Origin: Mycoplasmataceae bacterium
Lineage (GTDB): Bacteria; Bacillota_I; Bacilli_A; Mycoplasmatales; Mycoplasmoidaceae
DNA: 64,000 nt
NCBI GenBank assembly: GCA_031290395.1
Contig: JAITNN010000021.1
Coordinates: 124,001-188,000 of the forward strand
Direction of reading: 5' to 3'
Shown here: positions 28,707-52,556 of the stretch, piece by piece
Position numbering within the stretch: position 1 is the stretch's first letter
How the letters are laid out: the number at the start of each line of letters is the position of its first letter
Notes under the pieces: model-generated
Told to the model about the DNA's origin: nothing
Databases searched by the model: none
What the model saw: only the letters and a program-made list of their open reading frames with translations
Position numbers and translations under genes: made by a program

Positions 28707-29168
28707 TTAATAATATTTGTGGTAATCAATTTCCAATAGTAAACCAATTTGTTTTGCTAATTCTACTTTTGGGGTTCTTTCACCATTAATAATTTTGCTA
28801 ATATAACCTTCACTAATATCAAGAAACTTAGATAATTTATATTGCGATACATCTTTTTTCTTCAATTGCAGAGCAACTTCTTTAGCAAATTCTTTAGTCA
28901 CAAAGTGAGCAATTTTAGTATTTTGATTCGATTTTACCAATATGCGCATTTCATTCTTTTTACATTTAATATCATTTATTTTAGAAGGACTATGTAAATT
29001 ATTCAAGCCATCCAAATAAAGCGATAACGCATCAATTGCGTTTTCGTATGCATCTTCAATGGTTTTGCCAAATGTAAGACAATCTTCTAAATCTGGAAAG
29101 TAAATATTATATGTATTCTTTTCTTTATATATTATTGCTGGATATGTGTGTTGGGTCTTTTTATTCAT
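28707..29168 (-). CDS. hicB: HicB-family antitoxin with C-terminal HTH
   Basis: 153 residues from MNKKTQHTYPAIIY. The N-terminal partial RNase-H-like HicB fold shows YPAIIYKEKNTYNIYFPDLEDC and TFGKTIEDAYENAIDAL. The C-terminal helix-turn-helix is SQYKLSKFLDISEGYISKIINGER. It would neutralise HicA and repress the operon. It lies five bases after hicA, reading away from tRNA-Gly. Palindromes at 29391 and 29425 in the promoter are likely operators. Confidence 0.88.
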   Translation of the reverse strand: MNKKTQHTYPAIIYKEKNTYNIYFPDLEDCLTFGKTIEDAYENAIDALSLYLDGLNNLHSPSKINDIKCKKNEMRILVKSNQNTKIAHFVTKEFAKEVALQLKKKDVSQYKLSKFLDISEGYISKIINGERTPKVELAKQIGLLLEIDYHKYY

Positions 29169-29172
29169 AATG

Positions 29173-29366
29173 TTATTTGTTAATGCCTGCTTGTCTGTAA
29201 ATACTATGTTCTGTGCCTCTAGGCATGTCACCATGATGGATTGGTACAATTATCATTCTATTAGTTGCTATATTGAACATTTTAAGATGTGGATCCTGTT
29301 TGACTTTTTGGGATAAACCCGTGTTTTTTTTAATTTTTTAATCATTCTCTTAGCGGTGATAGGCAT
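29173..29366 (-). pseudogene. hicA: HicA mRNA-interferase toxin, frameshifted in an A8 tract
   Basis: AGGAG and ATG at 29366 start MPITAKRMIKKLKK. After an eight-A run (minus strand; 29324-29331) the frame leads to a short dead end of 32 residues. Adding one A (or removing two) would restore NTGLSQKVKQDPHLKMFN, with the conserved His, and IIVPIHHGDMPRGTEHSIYR, a clear HicA C-terminus ending at the TAA 29173-29175. The toxin is therefore off as sequenced. Either a real inactivation, slippage-based switching, or a homopolymer sequencing error. Confidence 0.8.
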
Positions 29367-29500: not shown

Positions 29501-29574
29501 GCGGGTATAGTTCAGTGGTAGAACTATAGCCTTCCAAGCTATTAATGTCGGTTCGATTCCGATTACCCGCTCCA
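29501..29574 (+). tRNA. tRNA-Gly (TCC), integration target
   Basis: Acceptor GCGGGTA with TACCCGC, anticodon loop CTTCCAA (TCC), T-arm GGTTCGATTCC, discriminator T, and CCA encoded. Its last 24 bases are the left attachment site of the integrated element. The tRNA is intact, so integration regenerated its 3' end. Confidence 0.97.
29551..29574 (+). repeat. attL: 3' end of tRNA-Gly
   Basis: 24 bases from GTTCGATTCC to CCCGCTCCA, identical to 52483-52506. Direct repeats of a tRNA 3' end flanking a tyrosine recombinase gene are the standard footprint of site-specific integration. Confidence 0.93.
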
Positions 29575-29578
29575 AAGC

Positions 29579-31396: not shown

Positions 31397-32314
31397 TTAT
31401 TCTTTTGTTAAATAATTATTATTTAAGAATAAATTATTGAATTTTTTTACCGAACCGTTCATTAAACAATTGGCAATATCGCAAGCGTCAAAGTTTCTTG
31501 GTGAGCCTAAGATGTAATGATTCATACAAGTTCTAACAGTGTTTCCTAAAACTTGAGCTATTGATGGTACATCTACATTTACTTCATGCATCAAACTTGC
31601 TTTTGTCCTACGTAAACTATGTGCACTTCATTTAAATTCAAAATGAGCTCATTTTTTGAAAACACAGAATCCTTCAACAATTAATCCTTTTTTAAGTCTA
31701 TATCGAATGTGTTGACAAAATCATTCGTATATTAACTTTTCAATATAAATTTCTCGTTTCTTGCATGTCTTTTCTGTATTAATAATGATTTCAGCATATG
31801 CACGTTTGTCAATTTGACTGGTGATAAATCGACTGGCCGTATTCTTATATCATTTGATTGAACACAATTCACCAATTCGCATACCAGAATTCAGTAATGC
31901 TTTAAAAGCAAAATAAATTTTTGTTCTAGCTATTTTAGTATTTTCTTGAATTGGTGAGTTGTGTATATTTAAATTAATTCATTCTTGAAATTTTTTATTT
32001 ACATATTCAATTTGATTAACATCTAATCGTGTTGTTGTTTTAGAAATTTCACTAGAACGATGATGAATGTACTTTGGATTAAATGCCATCCCATAAAATA
32101 AATTGTATGCAAATTTAAATACGGTACAATAGGCATTAGCTGTATTGTTGTTGCTTGTTGAATCTATTAATTTATTTGCCAATCTAACATCAATTTTAAC
32201 ATCACCAGAAAAATACTCTTTAAATCTGGTGACGACAGCATAATATTTTAAGCTTTTCTTTTTCTTGCAAAAACTTACCAATTTATTAAAAGTTATTTCT
32301 TGAATTATTTTCAT
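31397..32314 (-). CDS. int: Tyrosine recombinase (integrase of the element)
   Basis: 305 residues. N-terminal SAM-like DNA-binding region and C-terminal catalytic domain: first Arg in SGMRIGEL (about 143), HxxR in AHSLRRTKASL (about 229), and Tyr in MNHYI (about 267). The usual LGH before the Tyr reads LGN here, so one of the conserved catalytic positions differs. Integrates/excises the element at tRNA-Gly by inference from the flanking repeats. The ATG lies in a 26-base palindrome and TACAAT ends seven bases before it. Confidence 0.9.
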
Positions 32315-33068: not shown

Positions 33069-33144
33069 CTCCCTTATTTAAGAAGTGTCTGTCTTTCGGC
33101 CAGTCCAGATCGCTACGCTCAAATTAATTTGAAAAATACAAAAT

Positions 33145-33918
33145 ATGAAAAAGAAAAATGATTGAAAAATAGATATGTTAAAGTTCATTGCTAAATGAGG
33201 CTTTGTTGACATGAGATTCTTACAAGTTGAGTTCCCTTCTAAGTCACAGCCCAAATTGAATAAATGATTAAAATTTTATGAAAAAAATAGTTTTTTAAAA
33301 TGCATTCATATACCAATTATTGTAAATCACACTGGACACATAACAGCTATTTATTTTTTAAATAAAGAAGCCTACGATTCATTGGATGGTTTTACCGAAT
33401 GGGAAAAAATTGATGATAGTTATATTGCTTTAGATCATAATTTAGCCTGCTTAAAAATTATTAAAGCGCTATATGTTGGTAAATACAATTATTGAACTGC
33501 TAGACAAAATCAAGAATTGATTAAAAAGAATCGATATAAAGATTTGAATAAATTACTAACCAAAAGATTCAAGGAGTCTAAATCTGTTGATTTTATCTAT
33601 GATCGTGGTCAGGGAAGGATAGCTGCTGAATGTGAATTAACTATGAAGTCAAGTTCACGCTACCTATATTCTAAAGGCAAGAAATTATCGGTGATCAAAA
33701 AAATAAATCGAGATTTTGGTAGAGGTATGTTCAAAAAATTAGAATATTGGGTTCCTATGGATTTAAAAGATCGCATGGAAAGAATCCTAGCCAACAAAAC
33801 TCGTGGTGCCGATGTTCTAACTTGCCCATATGAAATTAAAGCGATAGAACAATTAATTCCTGGTTGAAAAAGAGATGATCGATATAAATTCATTTTAAGT
33901 AAAATGAAAAATGTATAA
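33145..33918 (+). CDS. Replication-relaxation-like protein
   Basis: 257 residues. The N-terminal winged-helix pattern MLKFIAKWGFVDMRFLQVEF and KLNKWLKFYEKNSFLKC is followed by a mobile-element-type strand (GHITAIYFLNKEAYDSL) and ALDHNLACLKIIKALYVG, matching by pattern the Replic_Relax family found on conjugative elements and plasmids. I see no HUH, so it is not itself a relaxase. TGA Trp codons throughout. It lies just after the hairpin cluster and before a terminator. Family assignment is tentative. Confidence 0.55.
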
Positions 33919-33954: not shown

Positions 33955-34080
33955 CTTAACATTTGATTGGTTAAGGTATCTTAGACATATTTATTATACC
34001 GCACACCAAAGAAAAAAACCAACCGCTAAGCGATTGACTTTTTTATTTCTTATCAATTTGATTGATTAAGTTTCTTACCA
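33955..34080. repeat. CTTA(n)TAAG inverted-repeat motif, copies 1 and 2
   Basis: Motif 1 (33955-33984) has perfect arms CTTAAC/GTTAAG then GTATCTTA; motif 2 (34049-34080) has CTTATCAAT/ATTGATTAAG then TTTCTTACC. Each follows a terminator (the second one at 34012-34044, stem around CGCTAAGCG). Related copies occur at 43827-43859 and, in the RNA leaders, at 34147-34170 and 43938-43960. Confidence 0.55.
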
Positions 34081-34144: not shown

Positions 34145-34366
34145 GCGGATTGGTTAAGGTTTCTTACCAATTCCGTAATGCAGTCCGCAGACCGGGGGAC
34201 CGCATCATGGACTATTTATTAGCCATAGTGATTATTCTGCTCATACTTCGTATGCGTAGGTAATTGCGAGGGATTAGAGCCTAAAGCTCTAGCTCCCTAT
34301 ATGGGGAGTAATCCTCGTGTATCTCTCGGTCATAAAGACGCAAGCTTATTAGCAAGCGTCTTTTTC
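34145..34366 (+). ncRNA. Structured RNA copy 1 with internal 18-codon ORF
   Basis: Leader stem GCGGATTG/CAGTCCGC (34145-34152, 34181-34188). Closing stem GACCG/CGGTC (34190-34194, 34327-34331) encloses the peptide ORF and a three-way junction: outer CGAGG(G)ATTA/TAATCCTCG, arms AGAGC/GCTCT and CTCCC/GGGAG. Ends at a terminator GACGC...GCGTC plus T-run. Copy 2 at 43935-44158 keeps every stem, with a compensatory change in the leader stem (T-G to C-G). Confidence 0.75.
34207..34263 (+). CDS. 18-residue hydrophobic peptide, copy 1
   Basis: MDYLLAIVIILLILRMRR, one hydrophobic helix with a basic tail, preceded by GGGGGA eight bases before the ATG. Identical peptide at 43998-44054. Size and composition recall type I toxins such as Ibs or Fst, but no antisense RNA has been identified. 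A regulatory leader peptide is an alternative. Confidence 0.6.
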   Translation: MDYLLAIVIILLILRMRR

Positions 34367-34376
34367 TTTCTTATTA

Positions 34377-34403
34377 ACACACTTTTATAAAAGTGTGTAT
34401 AAT
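34377..34403 (+). promoter_or_regulatory. 22-base palindromic promoter, copy 1
   Basis: Arms ACACACTTTT and AAAAGTGTGT around AT, with the last T starting TATAAT (34398-34403). Drives the ribbon-helix-helix gene at 34450. Exact copies at 37917-37943 and 44168-44194. Confidence 0.75.
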
Positions 34404-34406
34404 ATG

Positions 34407-34927
34407 GTAGACAAGATGGTCTACAACATGGTAGACAATAGAGAAAAATATGACATTAACACCCGAAGAACTTAAAATTAAGCAGCAATACGAAAAAATA
34501 ATGAAATTAAAACTCATTGAAAAAAATAGTTTCTTTTATAGACCAAGCACTAGACACGGTAAGCCTGTACTAGTTAAAGCAACTTTTAAGGATATGGAAT
34601 ATCAAGTTGATAAACAAATGTCAATTATGAATAATATTGTAGACCATGTGGTAGACAATAAGATTCTACAATCTAAAGATTGTAGACAAGATGGTCTACA
34701 ACATGGTAGACATTTATATAGACCCATTACTAAACCCGATACCTCTGAATCGTGGATTGTAATTTCAACAAAAATAAAAGCTACTGAGAAAAATAAATTT
34801 CAAAATTTAGTTACAAAGAATAATTTAACAATTGCACAAGCTCTTAAAGGGTATGTAGATCATATGGTAGACAGCAATGATAAATAACTCGAACTACAAT
34901 CTAAAGATTGTAGACAAGATGGTCTAC
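34407..34927. repeat. GTAGAC hexamer array, 12-bp phased
   Basis: Eleven GTAGAC or GTCTAC hexamers start at 34407, 34419 (inverted), 34431; 34639, 34651; 34682, 34694 (inverted), 34706; 34867; 34910, 34922 (inverted). Within each group the step is exactly 12 bases. Two groups are preceded by CTACAATCT-AA-AGATTGTAG. The array covers the promoter, body and end of the gene at 34450. Confidence 0.8.
34450..34887 (+). CDS. Probable ribbon-helix-helix DNA-binding protein
   Basis: 145 residues. The C-terminal segment WIVISTKIKATEKNKFQNLV followed by TIAQALKGYVDHMV fits the beta-helix-helix pattern of RHH proteins. The N-terminus is helical and charged. It is embedded in the GTAGAC array, which suggests it binds those sites and may autoregulate, partition, or mark an origin. 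Transcribed from the palindromic promoter at 34377 with a 45-base leader containing three hexamers. Confidence 0.55.
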   Translation: MTLTPEELKIKQQYEKIMKLKLIEKNSFFYRPSTRHGKPVLVKATFKDMEYQVDKQMSIMNNIVDHVVDNKILQSKDCRQDGLQHGRHLYRPITKPDTSESWIVISTKIKATEKNKFQNLVTKNNLTIAQALKGYVDHMVDSNDK

Positions 34928-35548
34928 AGTGTGGTTAACATACAAGATACTCATAACAATTTATATACCATCATTGCCGCTATATTTGTTGGAGTGGCTA
35001 TTGTAGTAGTTATTGTCTGTTGAATTAGATATAGAAGGAAACGAAAAAATATAATAGCTGCTCATAACGAGGAGCGAAATAAATTTAAAGCATCTAATAA
35101 AATCCCATTAACTTTTGATTCAGAATTTTCTCAAGCGTGGTTTAATAATTTAATCCAAAGTACTAGTTTGGTAAGTGCCGATGGGTGTTTACAAAATCTT
35201 AACAATTATCAATGGGTTAGTGGATGCTATATTATTTTTAACAAATCGGAACACGACAAAATTTATGTAGGGCAAAGCAAAAATTTAGCCTTACGAGTTC
35301 CACAGCATTTTTCAAACGAAGGACACGGCAATAAGCGTATTTATAATGACTATCGTGGCGGAGATAAATTTGAAATTAAAATCATCCCTTGAAAAAAAGA
35401 TATGCCAGATCTAAATAGATTAGAAGCTGGATTAATTAGAACACTTAAATCAGATAGTTACTATGGTTACAATCGTTCACTAGGTCGTGGTAGCAGCGAT
35501 AAAGAAATAATCGTCAAGAGAGATATACCGCATGAATGAGGTGGATAA
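34919..35548 (+). CDS. Membrane-anchored GIY-YIG nuclease
   Basis: 209 residues. An N-terminal membrane segment (IIAAIFVGVAIVVVIVCW) and basic stretch, then a GIY-YIG domain: GCYIIFNK (GIY-equivalent), IYVGQSKNLALRV (YIG with catalytic Arg), and a later Glu (RLEAGLIRTL) and Asn (YGYNRS). The membrane anchor is unusual for a nuclease and could place it at the transfer pore or defend against incoming DNA. The start at 34919 lies inside the last GTAGAC repeat; a GTG soon after is possible. Confidence 0.75.
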
Positions 35549-44167: not shown

Positions 44168-44194
44168 ACACACTTTTATAAAAGTGTGTATAAT
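44168..44194 (+). promoter_or_regulatory. 22-base palindromic promoter, copy 2 (transfer operon)
   Basis: Arms ACACACTTTT/AAAAGTGTGT; TATAAT at 44189-44194 ends nine bases before the coupling-protein ATG. It is the only clear promoter for 44204-52056, so it should control transfer. Confidence 0.8.
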
Positions 44195-44203
44195 ATCACC
44201 ATA

Positions 44204-46651
44204 ATGGAACCAGTTACCAAATCTAGTAATTCAGACACATTCGATTTATTTGTTAAATGTCTTTTATATGTTGTCCTTTTCCCAAGCATCCTGGGACTAC
44301 TTTTTTCTAAATATTTAAATCGTTTGATTCAAAAAGCACAAATCAATTCAAAATACGGCATTAATGTTAGTGCTTTTAATAAATTTGCAATTTGTATTGC
44401 TATTTTACTTGAAGCTATTATATTAGCTGGCTTCAGTTATTGTATGTATGCTGTTTTTCAAACGCATATCGTTTGACAAACAATCATTTATGCTCTTGCT
44501 ATTAACATTTCAATAGTTGGTGCAGTTAGTTTTTTCATTATCTTGATCTACAATAATATTTTCATCAAAAAATATCTATCTGAATTTAAGCATCTCGACA
44601 TTGTTGAAATTAAAGATACACCAACCAAAAAACGAGATATGAAGAAATGAAACACATTCACATTCTTCATCACCAATAGAAATTTTATTAAAAAATATAT
44701 TACACAAATAGTTTCTCACAAAAATGAGAAATTGATTATTTCAGGTGACGCAGGAGTTATTTTAAATAAAGAGCGTGCCATTTGCATATCGCCATATGCT
44801 TTAAGTCGAGGCACTGTAGTTTTTGGTACAACAGGTTCAGGCAAAACAAATACATTGGAACTATTTATTGAGTACTCAATAAACCAGAAACAAAATGTAA
44901 TTTTTGTTAATGGCAAAGGTGACCAAGGATTAGTTAAAGATTTACAAATAATATGTAAAAATAATGACTATGATTTAAAAGTTTGATCACCAAATTTATT
45001 TCTTAAATCTGATAGCGAATTTATTTATAACCCTTTCAAAGATAAATCAGCAGCTTTCGTAACATCGATATTAATGGAAATTGGCCGCTATTCTACTTTG
45101 GAAGAGACTACTCCCGGAGCAATTTATTATAAAAATGATGAAATGGCTTGTATTTCGTTATTATGCAAATCATTATTATGAAAACAAAAACATAAATTAA
45201 TGGATGATAAACAAGATTATTCGATTTCTTTAGATACACTATTTCATTATTCCGATATTGAGCATTTAAGCTTATTATTGGATGGTGATTCTAAAAGAAT
45301 TCAGCTTAATGAAATTAGCCAAAACATTGAATTGTATAAACGGATTCGTAGTAAAGCTAAATTCAAAACAGATGATGATCTTAAAAATACTAGACAACAG
45401 TTGTGAGAAATAGAAAACTTAAACAAAGAAATACCAAGTGATTTTTTATCAACATCTGATAAAGTAACACAATACTTAACTAATGAAATCAATCATCTGT
45501 CAAAGGAATATCAAAAAATTAAAAGTACTCCACTAATTAGAAATGATCGTGACTTTGACAATATCTTTGAAGAGTTTGTTGATGTAAATAAAAACGATGA
45601 CAAATTAAAAGCAATGTCAAACATTAGAACTACCTTTAGAAATTTAAGAGATATAAGCGGTGATAAGCGTATTATCGATTCATCTGGTGAAACATTAGCT
45701 AACATTATTACCTCTAAAAGGCCAACAATATTGTTATTTAGTTTAGATACAAAGGCGATGAAGATCCAATCAGCGCAAGTGGCAAGAATGCTAATCGCTG
45801 ATTTAAAGCAAAACGATCGGATTATTCGTGAAAAAAATGAAAATGCTAAATTAATGTGCATCTTTGATGAATTTGGTTCATTTGCTACTGAAGACATAGT
45901 TGAGTTGCAAGAACAAGGTCGGTCATTTGGATTTGAAATTATTTATTCCATTCAAACACTTTCTAATTTAACCAAAATATCACAAGATTTTGCGACCCGA
46001 ATTATTGGTAATTGTTCTACTTATATTACTCATCGTACCAGAGACAATAAAGCGGCGGAAGAAATAGCTAATTTAATTGCGACTAATCCCGAGTTTGAAG
46101 GAACGATGCGACATAGTCAGGGTGAAGAAACCGGAGAGGAATCTGTTCGTGAAGTACAAGCATTTATTCATCATCCTAGAATGATCAAACAAATTCCAGA
46201 TCACCATGCTTTGGTTGTGACAATTCAAGAAGGTCAAGTTACCCCCATTAAGGACCCTGTCAAAATTGATTATGCAGATACCGAAAACTTTATAAGTAAT
46301 CAGAATGCTAAGCATTCAGCAATTGAAGAACTTACAGATTTTTTTAGAAGCGAAGGGCTATCAAATAAGGAAGCGGCAAAGTTAGCCTATGAAAAATCAT
46401 ATTCATTACCAATTTCACATATCAATACAATGTCAGAAAGGCCTGTTAAAGCTAAATTTTTAACAAAAGATGGTAATTCTAAAGTTCAGATCGAAATTAG
46501 TAAAATCCAGGCCATGAGCGATGTGGAGTGAGATGAATATAGAGCATCATTATTCAAAAAGTTATATCCAGATAAAGAAATGAATAATGGATGATTTAAA
46601 AATAAGCAAACTTATATTGAAAAGAAATTGTTGACCAAACCAACGTCATAA
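44204..46651 (+). CDS. traG: Conjugal coupling ATPase (TraG/TraD/VirD4 type)
   Basis: 815 residues. Two to three N-terminal membrane spans (about 10-110), Walker A VFGTTGSGKTN at about 207, and Walker B KLMCIFDEFGSF at about 550, followed by the VirD4-type IIYSIQTLSNLTKIS and a NCSTYITHRTRDNKAAEEIA motif. It connects the DNA substrate to the secretion channel and pumps DNA. Corresponds to the TraG gene (CDS5) of known mycoplasma ICEs. Many TGA Trp codons. First gene of the transfer operon. Confidence 0.93.
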
Positions 46652-46900: not shown

Positions 46901-47200
46901 ATGAACAGAATAATGTTAGCAATAAGCAATGCAATAGTAGGTGCTAGTGGTGGCACCTCAACGGATATTTCTACTATTTTATATTCAGTATTTGATTCAT
47001 TGTTACCGATTGGATTAATTTTAGTCGCAATCGGAGCTATTCGTGCTGGTATTGCTTTATCGCATGCGGAAGATGATATAGCTGGTGCAAGGCACAAGAA
47101 GCGTTTAGTGAATTGCATCATCGGTGCAGTAGTTATTAGCGTTGCGCTGGTAGCAGTGAATGTTTTGGCAGCAACCGCAAGTAGCTGGGTAGGATCTTAG
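46901..47200 (+). CDS. VirB2/TrbC-like pilin candidate
   Basis: 99 residues with a short N-terminal helix, then two hydrophobic segments (LPIGLILVAIGAIRAGIAL and CIIGAVVISVALVAVNVLA) joined by a basic loop HAEDDIAGARHKKRLV. Size, two-helix topology and position before a VirB6-like gene match conjugative pilin subunits. AGAAGGAGG ribosome binding site. No sequence signature proves it. Confidence 0.6.
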   Translation: MNRIMLAISNAIVGASGGTSTDISTILYSVFDSLLPIGLILVAIGAIRAGIALSHAEDDIAGARHKKRLVNCIIGAVVISVALVAVNVLAATASSWVGS

Positions 47201-47205
47201 CATTT

Positions 47206-48657
47206 GTGAAAACCAACAAAAACGGTTTTTATAACGAAGTTGAAGATAAATATCTAAGATGAAAGCTTCGCAAGGAAAAAATTTTCCGCATAGGTGGAAG
47301 GATTTTGTTCTGAGGTTTTCTTATTATCGTAGTTTTGTCAATTCTTATCGGAATAATAGTTGGTAGTCTTAACTATAAAAATTTTCTTCCTAAAGATGTG
47401 CAATCTTTTTTTCATTTACAAGTATTAAATGATCAAAAAGTAGGTGGTATATTGCAGGACATTATTAACGCTATTTTATCAGCAATCTTAATATTTTTAT
47501 GGCCAATCATTTGACTATTTGCAGCCCTAACATATGTAATGCAATTGATATTCAATTGAGCAGGTGGCGCTGGTTTAATTAATTTATTTTTAAAAAGCAC
47601 AGGCCTTGTAACCCAAATTTCCGTAGTAGCTGTAGCTTCCGTTGCCTTTTTAGCCATTTGTTTAGTAGTAAGAGCTGTAAAAATAGCTCACAATAAAGAA
47701 GGTGATATAGGTCACGCTATGGCTAAAGCTACACCTGGTATTGTGTTTGGAAGCATTACAGCTATTGTCTTAATTCCTGTGTTATTTTTATTCATCAACG
47801 GCGTCGTAATGACTATTCTAAGTGTCTTAATAAACAATGGTAATATGAATATGGCCACATTAGTTTGAAATGCAAGTTTCGGCGATGGTAGTCAACATCT
47901 CACGGAATTTGCTGATATTCCAACATCTGGTTTTACAGTTGTGAACTATATATGAAATAATGATTTCAATATCGGGATATGCTTGATTGGTTGAATCGGT
48001 ACGACCGTGCTAATGGGTATTTATACATGGTATGTTATTGGTTTAATTTTTAATATCATATTTTTATATGTTTTGCTTTTTCCTGCCGCAGCAAAATGAC
48101 CGAATGACGAAGGTGGTAGTGTTTATGCTGTGCGTGATGAAATAGTTGGAAATTTTGTCAATTTATTTTCCCTATATTTTATATTCACCTTATTTACCGT
48201 AATGATTGCTGGGATAAATGGTATTGAATTATCAATAAGTGGAACTGATCCTACTGGTCTTTTACCAGGTGTTATAGTCATAATTTTGTTGCTAAGTGGA
48301 GGCTTAGCCGCTTGGAAAATGCCCAAGAAAATTCCTGGTCTATTTGCCGCTAAGGGTGATACAAGTTATTACAAAAACGATTTACCAGGTTCTAAAGCAG
48401 CTCAGGAAAAAGCAAAAGATTTAAACTCAGAGAAAAATCCTTTAAGTAAAGAAAATCGTGAGGAACGCAAGGACTTTAAAGAATCACATGATGGGATGGA
48501 TAAAAAGGAGTGAGAAAAAAGCGATGGTGGTATTGCCGAAAAAGCCAAGGTTGATGCTAAGAAAGTGGCGGATTCAAAAATTGCAAGTGGAATTCGTTCA
48601 GGTAAATCACCTACTGAAGCTGTTAAATTGGGAAAACCAATTGGGAAGAAAAATTAA
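47206..48657 (+). CDS. Polytopic VirB6/TrbL-like transfer protein
   Basis: 483 residues from a GTG start (no ATG fits; AGGAT upstream). A basic N-terminus, about seven membrane segments, then a charged cytoplasmic C-terminus rich in Lys/Glu/Asp from about residue 385 onward. Location between pilin-like and VirB4 genes and this topology fit the inner-membrane channel subunit. TGA Trp codons are numerous. Confidence 0.65.
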
Positions 48658-48659
48658 TT

Positions 48660-51449
48660 ATGTCAGAGAAGAGTAAACGAGAAATTTTAATCACAAAACC
48701 TACCAAATATATTCGTGATATTTTTGCACATATGTTTGGAGGAATTGGTGGTATGGAACTAATTATTTTTTCCATTATTTTTGTAATCACTGCTGGACTA
48801 GTAGTATTAATTTTTTTTCTGACTAAAGGTGAATCTATCTATTTGCAAATTGGGTTATGCGCTGGTGTATTAATTTTAGGAATATTAATTTTGTTCTTTT
48901 TAATTCGAACAAAAGCAAATAAAGATAAAGAATGAAAATATTTGCACGATAAATATCGTTATGAATTTGATAATAATAAAAAAGAGTTAGACTCACCAGA
49001 TATATTTAATCTATTCAACATTGAATGTATCCATGATAATGGTGATATTGAATTCAATGTAAAATCCCCTAATAAAGGCGGATTAAAATCCGTTAATGAC
49101 AACCATTCTTTTAATAAAGATAATATGCACGGAGTATTATTTAAGCTATCGGGCGTCAATGTTGGTTTATTAACAAACGATGAGAGCAATCGCGTTATTG
49201 ATGCGATGGCTAATCCGTGACTAAAAATTGACTTGAATCATAAAATTATCATAGTTGATGAGGAAATCAATATTAAACCTATGAATGACTATTTGTATGG
49301 ATTAAAAGAGAAATACAAGAATGTTACAAACATTAAGATCGACGGCCCTACAGATGCAGATATTAAATTAAATCAAATTAATAACTACATAAATATTAAT
49401 GATGAAATTAAACAAAAGAATATTGTTAATAAAGGCATCTATATATTATTTTTTTATTATAAAGAATCAGACTTAGATAATGCTTGTGCTGAGATTGAGG
49501 GTGTTGGTAATTCAACCAAAACGTCTTTAACTCGAGTAGAAAATAAACAAACTGTGTGTAATATTTTAAATACTCTGTACGTGCCACTGTCAGACAAATG
49601 ATTTAATGGCAAATCTAAAATAGGCATTAACCAAAATTTAGGAAAAATAAAAATTTTTAAAGATTACATTCAACTAGGCAAAAAGCAATTTACAAAATTG
49701 ATTGAAATTAAGCAATGTCCTACATTAGTTACAGCAGGCTGATTGAGAAAAATTTCTACATATCGTAATATTCAAACTTTTATAACATTTGAAAAAACAG
49801 ATGCCGAAGTAATAAGACAAAATTTAGAGCGTTCTAAAAGAAAAATTAAATTGAACTGAGAATTTGTAAAATCTGAAGGCGAAGCGTTTAATCAAAAAGA
49901 ATATGTAGATGTTATGACAAATCTCATCCATGATTACGCCAAAGGTTATTCGCGCCCATGATATGTAAATATTACTTTTATCATAACGGCTTCGAGCAAA
50001 GATGAATTACTCGATCTAACTAAATCTTTTACTAAGGAATTAAAATCTGTCGATCGATTTCAATTTAATGAATTAAATTATTTTCAACACGATGCGTTAA
50101 TGCTAATGTGGTCGTTCCAGTACACAAAAAAGAAAAAATTGATGACTTATATGGAGTTAAGCAATGATGCTGTTGGAGCGATGTATCCGTTCGTTTCTAA
50201 TGCTTTAAAAGATACACAAGGCGTCCAATTAGGGTATGAAACATACTCTGGTGATCCATTTTGGTTCGATCTCAAGATGAAAGAAGGAAAACTACGTAAT
50301 TCTAACGTTTGTTTAGTTTGTGCAAAAACTGGTGGTGGTAAAACATATACCGTTAATAAAATATGCAATTGGTTTAAGAATACTTCGTTTAATAAAAATA
50401 TGCGCCAATATATAGTCGACCCATTAGGAGACTACTATGGATTGTTTGTAAATCATTACAACGTTTCTAAAATTGATATGACCGATGCAAGCAAGGGACT
50501 AATTAACCCATTGCAGATTTTAGATGAAGAAAAAGATCGAACAACACATGCGAACGAATTCATCGTCTGATTATCAATGATTGGACAAAAGAAATTTAGT
50601 GCTAAAATTGAAAAATTACTTATCGAAAACATCCTAGAACTCTACGAAAAATTTCATATTAGTGATGACTTCAATGAAATAAAAGATGATATTGGGGAAA
50701 CACATCATATTTACAAGTATAGTAAACTAGACAACAAAAAATGACCCACTACTGACGATTTATATGAATATCTATTGAAGAAGTTTAAAAATGTTAAATC
50801 TGAATCTCAAGAAGAGGAAATGATCCACATTGTTTGGAAAGTATCAGAACAAGGCAACTATGGTAGAACGTGGAATGGTTACACTACATTGAATGTGGAG
50901 CATGCAGATATCGTAATACTTGATACGCATAGCCTAGATCCTGATCGTGATCCAATATTATTTAAATGTCAAATGTATCTAATTTCAAGTTTTTTGAGAG
51001 GCGAAGCTTTGAAAAATCGTGATCGAAATTTAGGTATTACTAATGTAGATGATTTAAGATGAATAACCATTGTTGTGGACGAAGCGCATCGATGAGTAAA
51101 GAATAATCCGATTGCTCTTAAAACTCTTGAATTGTTAGCCCGCGAGATTCGACATCACAAAGGTGTTTTAATTTTATCTACGCAAAACATAGCCGATTTT
51201 AAAGGGGAACCAGAAGCCATTTTAAAACAAGCTCTTTATCAAATTGTTCTTAACATGACTCCTGCTGATGTTACGAGTTATGATGAATTATTAAAAGAAG
51301 CTGGTGGTCTAACTCAAAACGAAAAGGATTACATTATAAACGCCAGTATCGGTGAGGCTTTAATTTCTATTGGTCCAAAATATCGATGCTATGTGAAAAT
51401 TAAAGCTAATCAAATAGAAGAATATATGTGAATAAATGGAGCTAAATAA
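48660..51449 (+). CDS. traE: Conjugal transfer ATPase (TraE/VirB4 type)
   Basis: 929 residues. Two N-terminal membrane spans (about 35-90), then a long cytoplasmic domain with Walker A VCAKTGGGKTYTVNK at about 555, VDPLGDYYGLF, Walker B ITIVVDEAHRWV at about 803, and LILSTQNIADF, typical of VirB4. It powers pilus assembly and substrate transfer. Counterpart of TraE (CDS17) in known mycoplasma ICEs. Starts two bases after the previous stop; its stop overlaps the next start. Confidence 0.92.
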
Positions 51450-52482: not shown

Positions 52483-52506
52483 GTTCGATTCCGATTACCC
52501 GCTCCA
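52483..52506 (+). repeat. attR
   Basis: 24-base exact copy of the tRNA-Gly 3' end (29551-29574), marking the right boundary of the element. Confidence 0.93.
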
Positions 52507-52556
52507 ATTACCCACTGAATCAATTGGGTGCCATATTTAATAACGTTAGGAGATAT

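Follow-up and report, generated by a model that had tools for sequence, protein, structure and literature searches.

Phased hexamer arrays in and around an RHH-like gene of a mollicute ICE are probable operators of the encoded protein, and related genes carry private motifs in the same places

The window, by which we mean the whole stretch of 64,000 nucleotides that was analysed, belongs to the roughly 1.01-Mb genome of a mollicute, whose genes were read with genetic code 4. Eleven GTAGAC hexamers lie at 34407–34927 of the window, in and around a gene for a 145-aa protein (34450–34887, + strand), and six neighbouring pairs are spaced exactly 12 bp apart. The upstream array, GTAGAC-6-GTCTAC-6-GTAGAC at 34407–34436, comprises hexamers at 34407 (+), 34419 (−) and 34431 (+), and follows a predicted sigma-70-type promoter, TTAACA-18-TATAAT at 34374–34403 (+ strand), which agrees with the consensus at 11 of 12 positions and stops 3 nt before the first hexamer. 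An in-gene array at 34639–34711, in linker-coding DNA, contains two plus three hexamers (34639+ and 34651+; 34682+, 34694− and 34706+), which are read in two frames and in both orientations, and a downstream array at 34855–34927 consists of GTAGAT at 34855, GTAGAC at 34867 (+) and 34910 (+), and GTCTAC at 34922 (−).

The initial annotation had described eleven hexamers with exactly 12-base steps and alternating orientation, together with an extra palindrome shared by two groups. All eleven were recovered, and 1000 dinucleotide shuffles of 34380–34960 gave a mean of 0.23 sites, a maximum of 3 and no 12-bp pair; the palindrome, CTACAATCT-2-AGATTGTAG, is also present, at 34666–34685 within the in-gene array and at 34894–34913 within the downstream array. 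The phasing holds for the six neighbouring pairs but not for 34867, whose neighbour at 34855 reads GTAGAT and which is thus without an exact partner, and the orientation alternates in the upstream array, for example, but not at 34639 and 34651, which are both on the + strand. Across the whole window GTAGAC occurs 23 times against 11.1 expected, the cluster accounting for the excess. The whole genome contains no other GTAGAC-N6-GTCTAC with one mismatch allowed, and GTAGAC-N6-GTMKAC was found neither elsewhere in this genome nor in four other genomes searched.

The protein encoded among these sites is made up of an N-domain (aa 1–60; 34450–34629, + strand), a linker and an RHH-like C-terminal domain (aa 102–145; 34753–34884, + strand). 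An AlphaFold model built on a four-row alignment has a confident N-domain (pLDDT about 90 over most of the domain), disorder over aa 62–98 and helices at aa 111–123 and 128–142; in this monomer model the two helices of RHH size are present and the strand is not modelled. Residues 64–88, encoded by the in-gene array, fall within the predicted disordered linker. The protein has no match in Pfam (up to E 0.1) or PHROG, Foldseek of its N-domain against the PDB returned nothing below E 0.3, and the profile libraries supplied no RHH domain name for it; family members taken singly give weak matches to RHH_5, RHH_7 and similar profiles, and the window sequence gives none. A profile search of the PDB returned weak matches to HP0222 (E 0.07) and AvtR (E 0.11), both RHH proteins. 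Together, the family alignment, the helices and the weak profile matches make it likely that the C-terminal domain is an RHH domain.

The gene lies in an element of about 22.9 kb enclosed by 25-bp exact direct repeats (+ strand), the attL-like copy at 29551–29575, at the 3' end of tRNA-Gly (TCC; 29501–29574), and its exact attR-like partner at 52483–52507. The element encodes a tyrosine integrase (31397–32314, − strand, code 4; Phage_integrase PF00589, 6.7e-8) that is 48% identical to the integrase of a related element (L006), and, on the + strand, a coupling protein (44186–46651), a pilin-like protein (46901–47200), an Mbov_0396-like membrane protein (47206–48657) and a VirB4-like ATPase (48660–51449) of a T4SS. 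Since integrase, T4SS genes and bounding attachment repeats are all present, the element is an ICE, inserted in tRNA-Gly and distantly resembling the mycoplasma ICEs: its pilin-like and membrane proteins match the Mbov_0395 and Mbov_0396 NCBIfam models (1e-5 and 3e-16, both under the curated cut-offs), whereas its tyrosine integrase and tRNA-Gly site set it apart from them. Just outside the ICE, at 28707–29249, is a gene for a HicB-like antitoxin with HTH (PF15919, 4e-8; PF01381, 4e-8).

The gene before the array (33085–33918, + strand) has a weak MobC-type (replication-relaxation) likeness (NF041423, E 0.0095, far under the cut-off) and no Pfam match for its product; across the family, Pfam gave nothing useful on the relaxase-like neighbour proteins, and a structure model for the neighbour protein family had a mean pLDDT of only 36. 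The next ORF (34877–35548, + strand), whose 5' end is overlapped by the downstream array, encodes a membrane segment and a GIY-YIG nuclease domain (PF01541, 1.7e-11). Upstream of the array, an ORF at 34207–34263 encodes an 18-residue hydrophobic peptide, MDYLLAIVIILLILRMRR, that resembles a type I toxin peptide, and in Rfam positions 33961–34047 bear a weak, sub-threshold resemblance to the Streptococcus sRNA SpF25 (28.6 bits, against a gathering score of 48).

When 320 genomes of the order were searched with a profile, 17 had matches at E 0.01, and the family was read from 18 matched loci plus L005 (matched rows outside this reading were L030, at the same place as L011, and L032, L033, L034, L035, L037 and L046; L011, L013, L014 and L015 were inspected as ORFs only). 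Seven homologous genes, the window's included, share the arrangement of N-part, linker and RHH-like part, and come from five genomes of one mollicute genus: the window gene and L016 (G000), L005 and L017 (G038), L010 (G037), L008 (G044) and L028 (G054). These loci are a small sample from a single genus, mostly in draft assemblies, and the count leaves out L029, probably another member, truncated where its contig stops. Among 395 genomes drawn from the class no confirmed member was found outside the genus, L047 being unrelated and L048 lying outside the loci read; phage (DNA) and plasmid (protein) searches gave no match, on which a phage or plasmid origin was rejected, and viral contigs yielded no relative and a single lone pattern match (L059). 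Six of the seven pieces also have an integrase-like ORF near the gene (identified by Pfam in the window, by BLAST in L006 and by eye in the ORF lists of L052–L055).

The initial annotation had looked to related elements for the same phased array, and had named retention of the gene with loss of the array as an observation that would count against it. The letters themselves are not conserved, as arrays of GTAGAC occur in none of the other six genes, but each of the six has a phased motif of its own in the same places: GTTAAT in L005 (step 11–12), a TAATACA-type motif in L016, TATAGTGA in L017 (steps 12–13 and 25), TATAGATA in L010 (step 13–14), GTTTAC-3-GTAAAC in L008 (step 9) and GGTATACC-2-GGTATACC in L028 (step 10). 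The form GTnnAC is shared by three of the seven motifs. The common positions are before the start codon, in linker-coding DNA and on the 3' side, the last in six of the seven genes: L008 is without a clear 3' array, and the 3' copy of L016 lies more than 120 nt on, inside the following ORF. An eighth gene, L042, with a related RHH part and a different N-part, has no array, which counts against an operator function. In L056, GGTATACC-2-GGTATACC recurs at seven places between 6590 and 10918, mostly at gene borders of one run, and just one of these falls inside the RHH gene. The N-domain is found outside arrays as well: in L027, L031 and L036 it forms the C-terminal end of a long ORF that adjoins another ORF, and it is a separate mobile domain.

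Arrays of one locus match each other far better than they match arrays of other loci. The best upstream–linker match across the seven loci averaged 22.4 within a locus versus 9.4 between loci (highest 15), with corresponding values of 18.3 versus 8.9 for linker–downstream and 17.9 versus 8.6 for upstream–downstream; in each of these three comparisons the true pairing alone out of 5040 attains the observed sum, and control segments from the remainder of the gene carry no within-locus signal. Compared with shuffles, all seven loci pass for upstream–linker (each ≤1/100), while for linker–downstream five are clear, L008 is weak (3/100) and L016 fails (51/100, within 120 nt). In an unselected ranking of 175 ORFs, from the window plus seven related pieces, family genes took places 1–5, then 7 and 13, by upstream–interior match, and six of the seven came out on top by interior–downstream match, the sixth tied at 15 with a window gene. 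Among 29 matched loci compared (7 family, 1 without a start codon and 21 others, many of them other RHH genes), the 21 non-family genes reached at most 13 upstream–interior and 12 interior–downstream.

Synonymous recoding of the linker gave an equal upstream–linker match in 0/300 cases each for the window, L016 and L010, in 1/300 for L028 and 2/300 for L008, and in 21/300 for L017 and 27/300 for L005. Because recoded linkers so rarely regain the match, the constraint is at the DNA level, and it is clear in five loci and modest in two (L005 and L017). The suggestion in the initial annotation of a cis-acting array under selection, tolerated also within codons, is supported by the recoding result for the window and by the reading of its hexamer in two frames. 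We rejected a peptide repeat or simple tandem duplication as the source of the arrays: the two frames and both orientations of the hexamer, and the loss of the match on synonymous recoding, tell against both.

The private motifs follow the RHH-like domain. Over the 21 locus pairs, motif similarity correlates with RHH-domain similarity at r 0.80 (13/5040 permutations at least as high), or 0.655 after correction for composition (20/5040); the corresponding values for the N-domain are 0.08 and, corrected, 0.02. In a table drawn up by hand from the family alignment, the third presumed base-contact residue is lysine in all three GTnnAC members and serine in all four others, the presumed contact positions being taken from an alignment to CopG. 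This co-variation of motif and domain strongly suggests that the arrays are recognised by the RHH-like domain of the very gene in which they lie.

We therefore consider it probable, on sequence grounds, that the RHH-like protein uses the arrays in and around its gene as operators, most likely for autorepression and possibly also for relaxosome assembly. One RHH dimer would occupy each hexamer, itself a GTnnAC pseudo-palindrome, and adjacent dimers, 12 bp or about one helical turn apart, could bind cooperatively. The upstream array sits just behind the predicted −10 box, so that protein bound there should repress the gene. Through the linker and 3' arrays the nucleoprotein complex may reach across the gene and serve as a roadblock, a looping partner or a relaxosome platform, and an array within the gene would be tolerated there because the linker is predicted to be disordered. 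Every ICE would thus have a private motif read by its own RHH domain. Computation shows the arrays, where they lie, the constraint on their DNA and the co-variation of motif and RHH domain; from these we infer binding, autorepression and an involvement in processing DNA for conjugation. The last is plausible by analogy, as RHH proteins with private sites act in this way in staphylococcal plasmids (PMC8136818) and a single protein of RA3 has both roles (PMC4175270).

The order of these functions could be the reverse, with the arrays primarily accessory oriT sites and the protein mainly a relaxosome accessory factor that only secondarily represses, which we regard as possible, if on the unlikely side. 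Accessory factors of the RHH type whose cognate sites diverge are known, SmpO among them (PMC8136818), and MobC of RA3 both acts as a repressor of the operon that encodes it and promotes transfer (PMC4175270). Within the family, the RHH gene of L052 stands directly before a MobP3-type relaxase, 4 nt on (E 2.9e-10). However, Pfam and NCBIfam recognised no relaxase in the window ICE and no nic site was recognised there, the MobC-type likeness of the 33085 neighbour goes no further than the match given above, its relationship to the partner genes in other elements is unproven, and a primary role at oriT leaves the in-gene and 3' copies unexplained. Of the functions proposed in the initial annotation, iterons and a parS array fit the data less well than relaxosome sites, or than operators.

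Another reading takes the arrays as recombination joints that flank coding modules, so that cassettes of N-domain and RHH domain are exchanged or lost. N-domain and RHH-domain similarities are indeed uncorrelated (r 0.02): the window and L005 share 46% identity in the N-domain and 19% in the RHH part, for which the value between L005 and L016 is 48%. Tree tests conflict in the same sense, with the N data rejecting L005+L016 (p-AU 0.007) and the RHH data rejecting window+L005 (0.027), in alignments of 45–64 columns; as the tested groups were named post hoc and the RHH tree brings long branches together, we treat these trees as a lead only. A natural product of such an event is L040 (G038), a damaged copy of the L017 locus in which the upstream array is joined directly to the linker array, the N-domain part being gone. 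This junction within an array and the border positions in L056 indicate that the arrays mark module borders too. As an explanation of the arrays themselves, recombination is nevertheless improbable, since it accounts for shuffling but not for the phasing or for a motif that tracks the RHH domain, and array homology would be unusable for exchange between elements with different motifs.

The operator reading and the traces of exchange can be combined in a bolder proposal, which we hold to be doubtful: the RHH half-gene would be a self-addressed specificity cassette that moves with its own sites, so that DNA-binding specificity changes in one step. A recombined RHH half-gene would bring matching sites with it because its own arrays flank both its sides. 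If so, an element could switch specificity without a non-functional intermediate, and the window gene would be a chimera, its N-domain nearest that of L005 (46%; motif GTTAAT) and its RHH half nearer the GTnnAC class.

ICEs can replicate once excised, and the arrays might then be iterons, forming an in-gene replication origin at which the protein acts as initiator of the excised element, as in RepA_N plasmids. The Rep of pSK41 has the same layout, with its own binding sites in the part of the gene that encodes a dispensable linker (PMC5703833). We judge iterons distinctly unlikely here: the window protein has no RepA_N or other Rep domain (Pfam up to E 0.1), its DNA-binding part resembles RHH and no known initiator fold, the arrays lie also in the promoter and behind the gene (and in L056 at places mostly outside the RHH gene), and GC near the array is ordinary, at 0.29–0.36. 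In some plasmids the partition site typically has phased repeats beside an RHH gene, yet a parC/parS-like centromere bound by an RHH ParR-like protein is very improbable, as no ParA/ParM-like gene was seen in the ORF lists of the element or of the homolog neighbourhoods. The least credible reading, that the inverted hexamers form mRNA hairpins, draws on the good folding of the window arrays as RNA (z −2.5, −6.9 and −3.3), but hairpins were ruled out as a common feature because the linker array of L017, made of direct repeats, does not fold (minimum free energy 0), and the 3' array of that locus folds weakly.

Among known systems, pSK41 Rep (RepA_N) and pT181-type Rep are alike in placing sites within the binding protein's own gene, for pSK41 in linker-coding DNA (PMC5703833), and the window family shares this trait with sites that are presumably cognate. 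RepA_N sites are confined to the middle of rep, whereas those of the window family lie also in the promoter and behind the gene; RepA_N is moreover an initiator and not an RHH protein. In-linker sites of a protein's own are thus already known, and what appears new here is an RHH protein with co-diversifying arrays: our literature search found no report of RHH genes with in-gene sites or of an RHH protein with such arrays.

MobC of RA3, likewise of the RHH type, binds a palindrome to repress the promoter of its own gene and also assists transfer; unlike the window family it has a single operator, between −35 and −10, with none seen inside the gene in the accessible part of that report (PMC4175270). 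PcfF of pCF10 is likewise an RHH accessory factor, which binds oriT and recruits the relaxase; its RHH domain is N-terminal, and phased in-gene arrays are not mentioned in the portion available (PMC6514445). A parallel in specificity is SmpO with ossA–ossB of the pWBG749 family, an RHH protein of a conjugative element that binds short GNNNNC dyads, each subtype with a private site; it sets oriT specificity, and one residue can switch that specificity, while its sites lie in oriT and are not seen within its gene in the part of the source available, and its RHH domain is N-terminal where that of the window family is C-terminal (PMC8136818). In the window family, the arrays allow the motif that an uncharacterised RHH protein probably binds to be read from sequence alone, and natural exchanges of domains appear to have taken place. 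The SmpO study asks, for conjugative plasmids, how specificity shifts jointly in a DNA-binding protein and in its sites (PMC8136818), and in the present family element-specific sites form part of the DNA that codes for the protein's linker, which makes protein and site comparable pair by pair.
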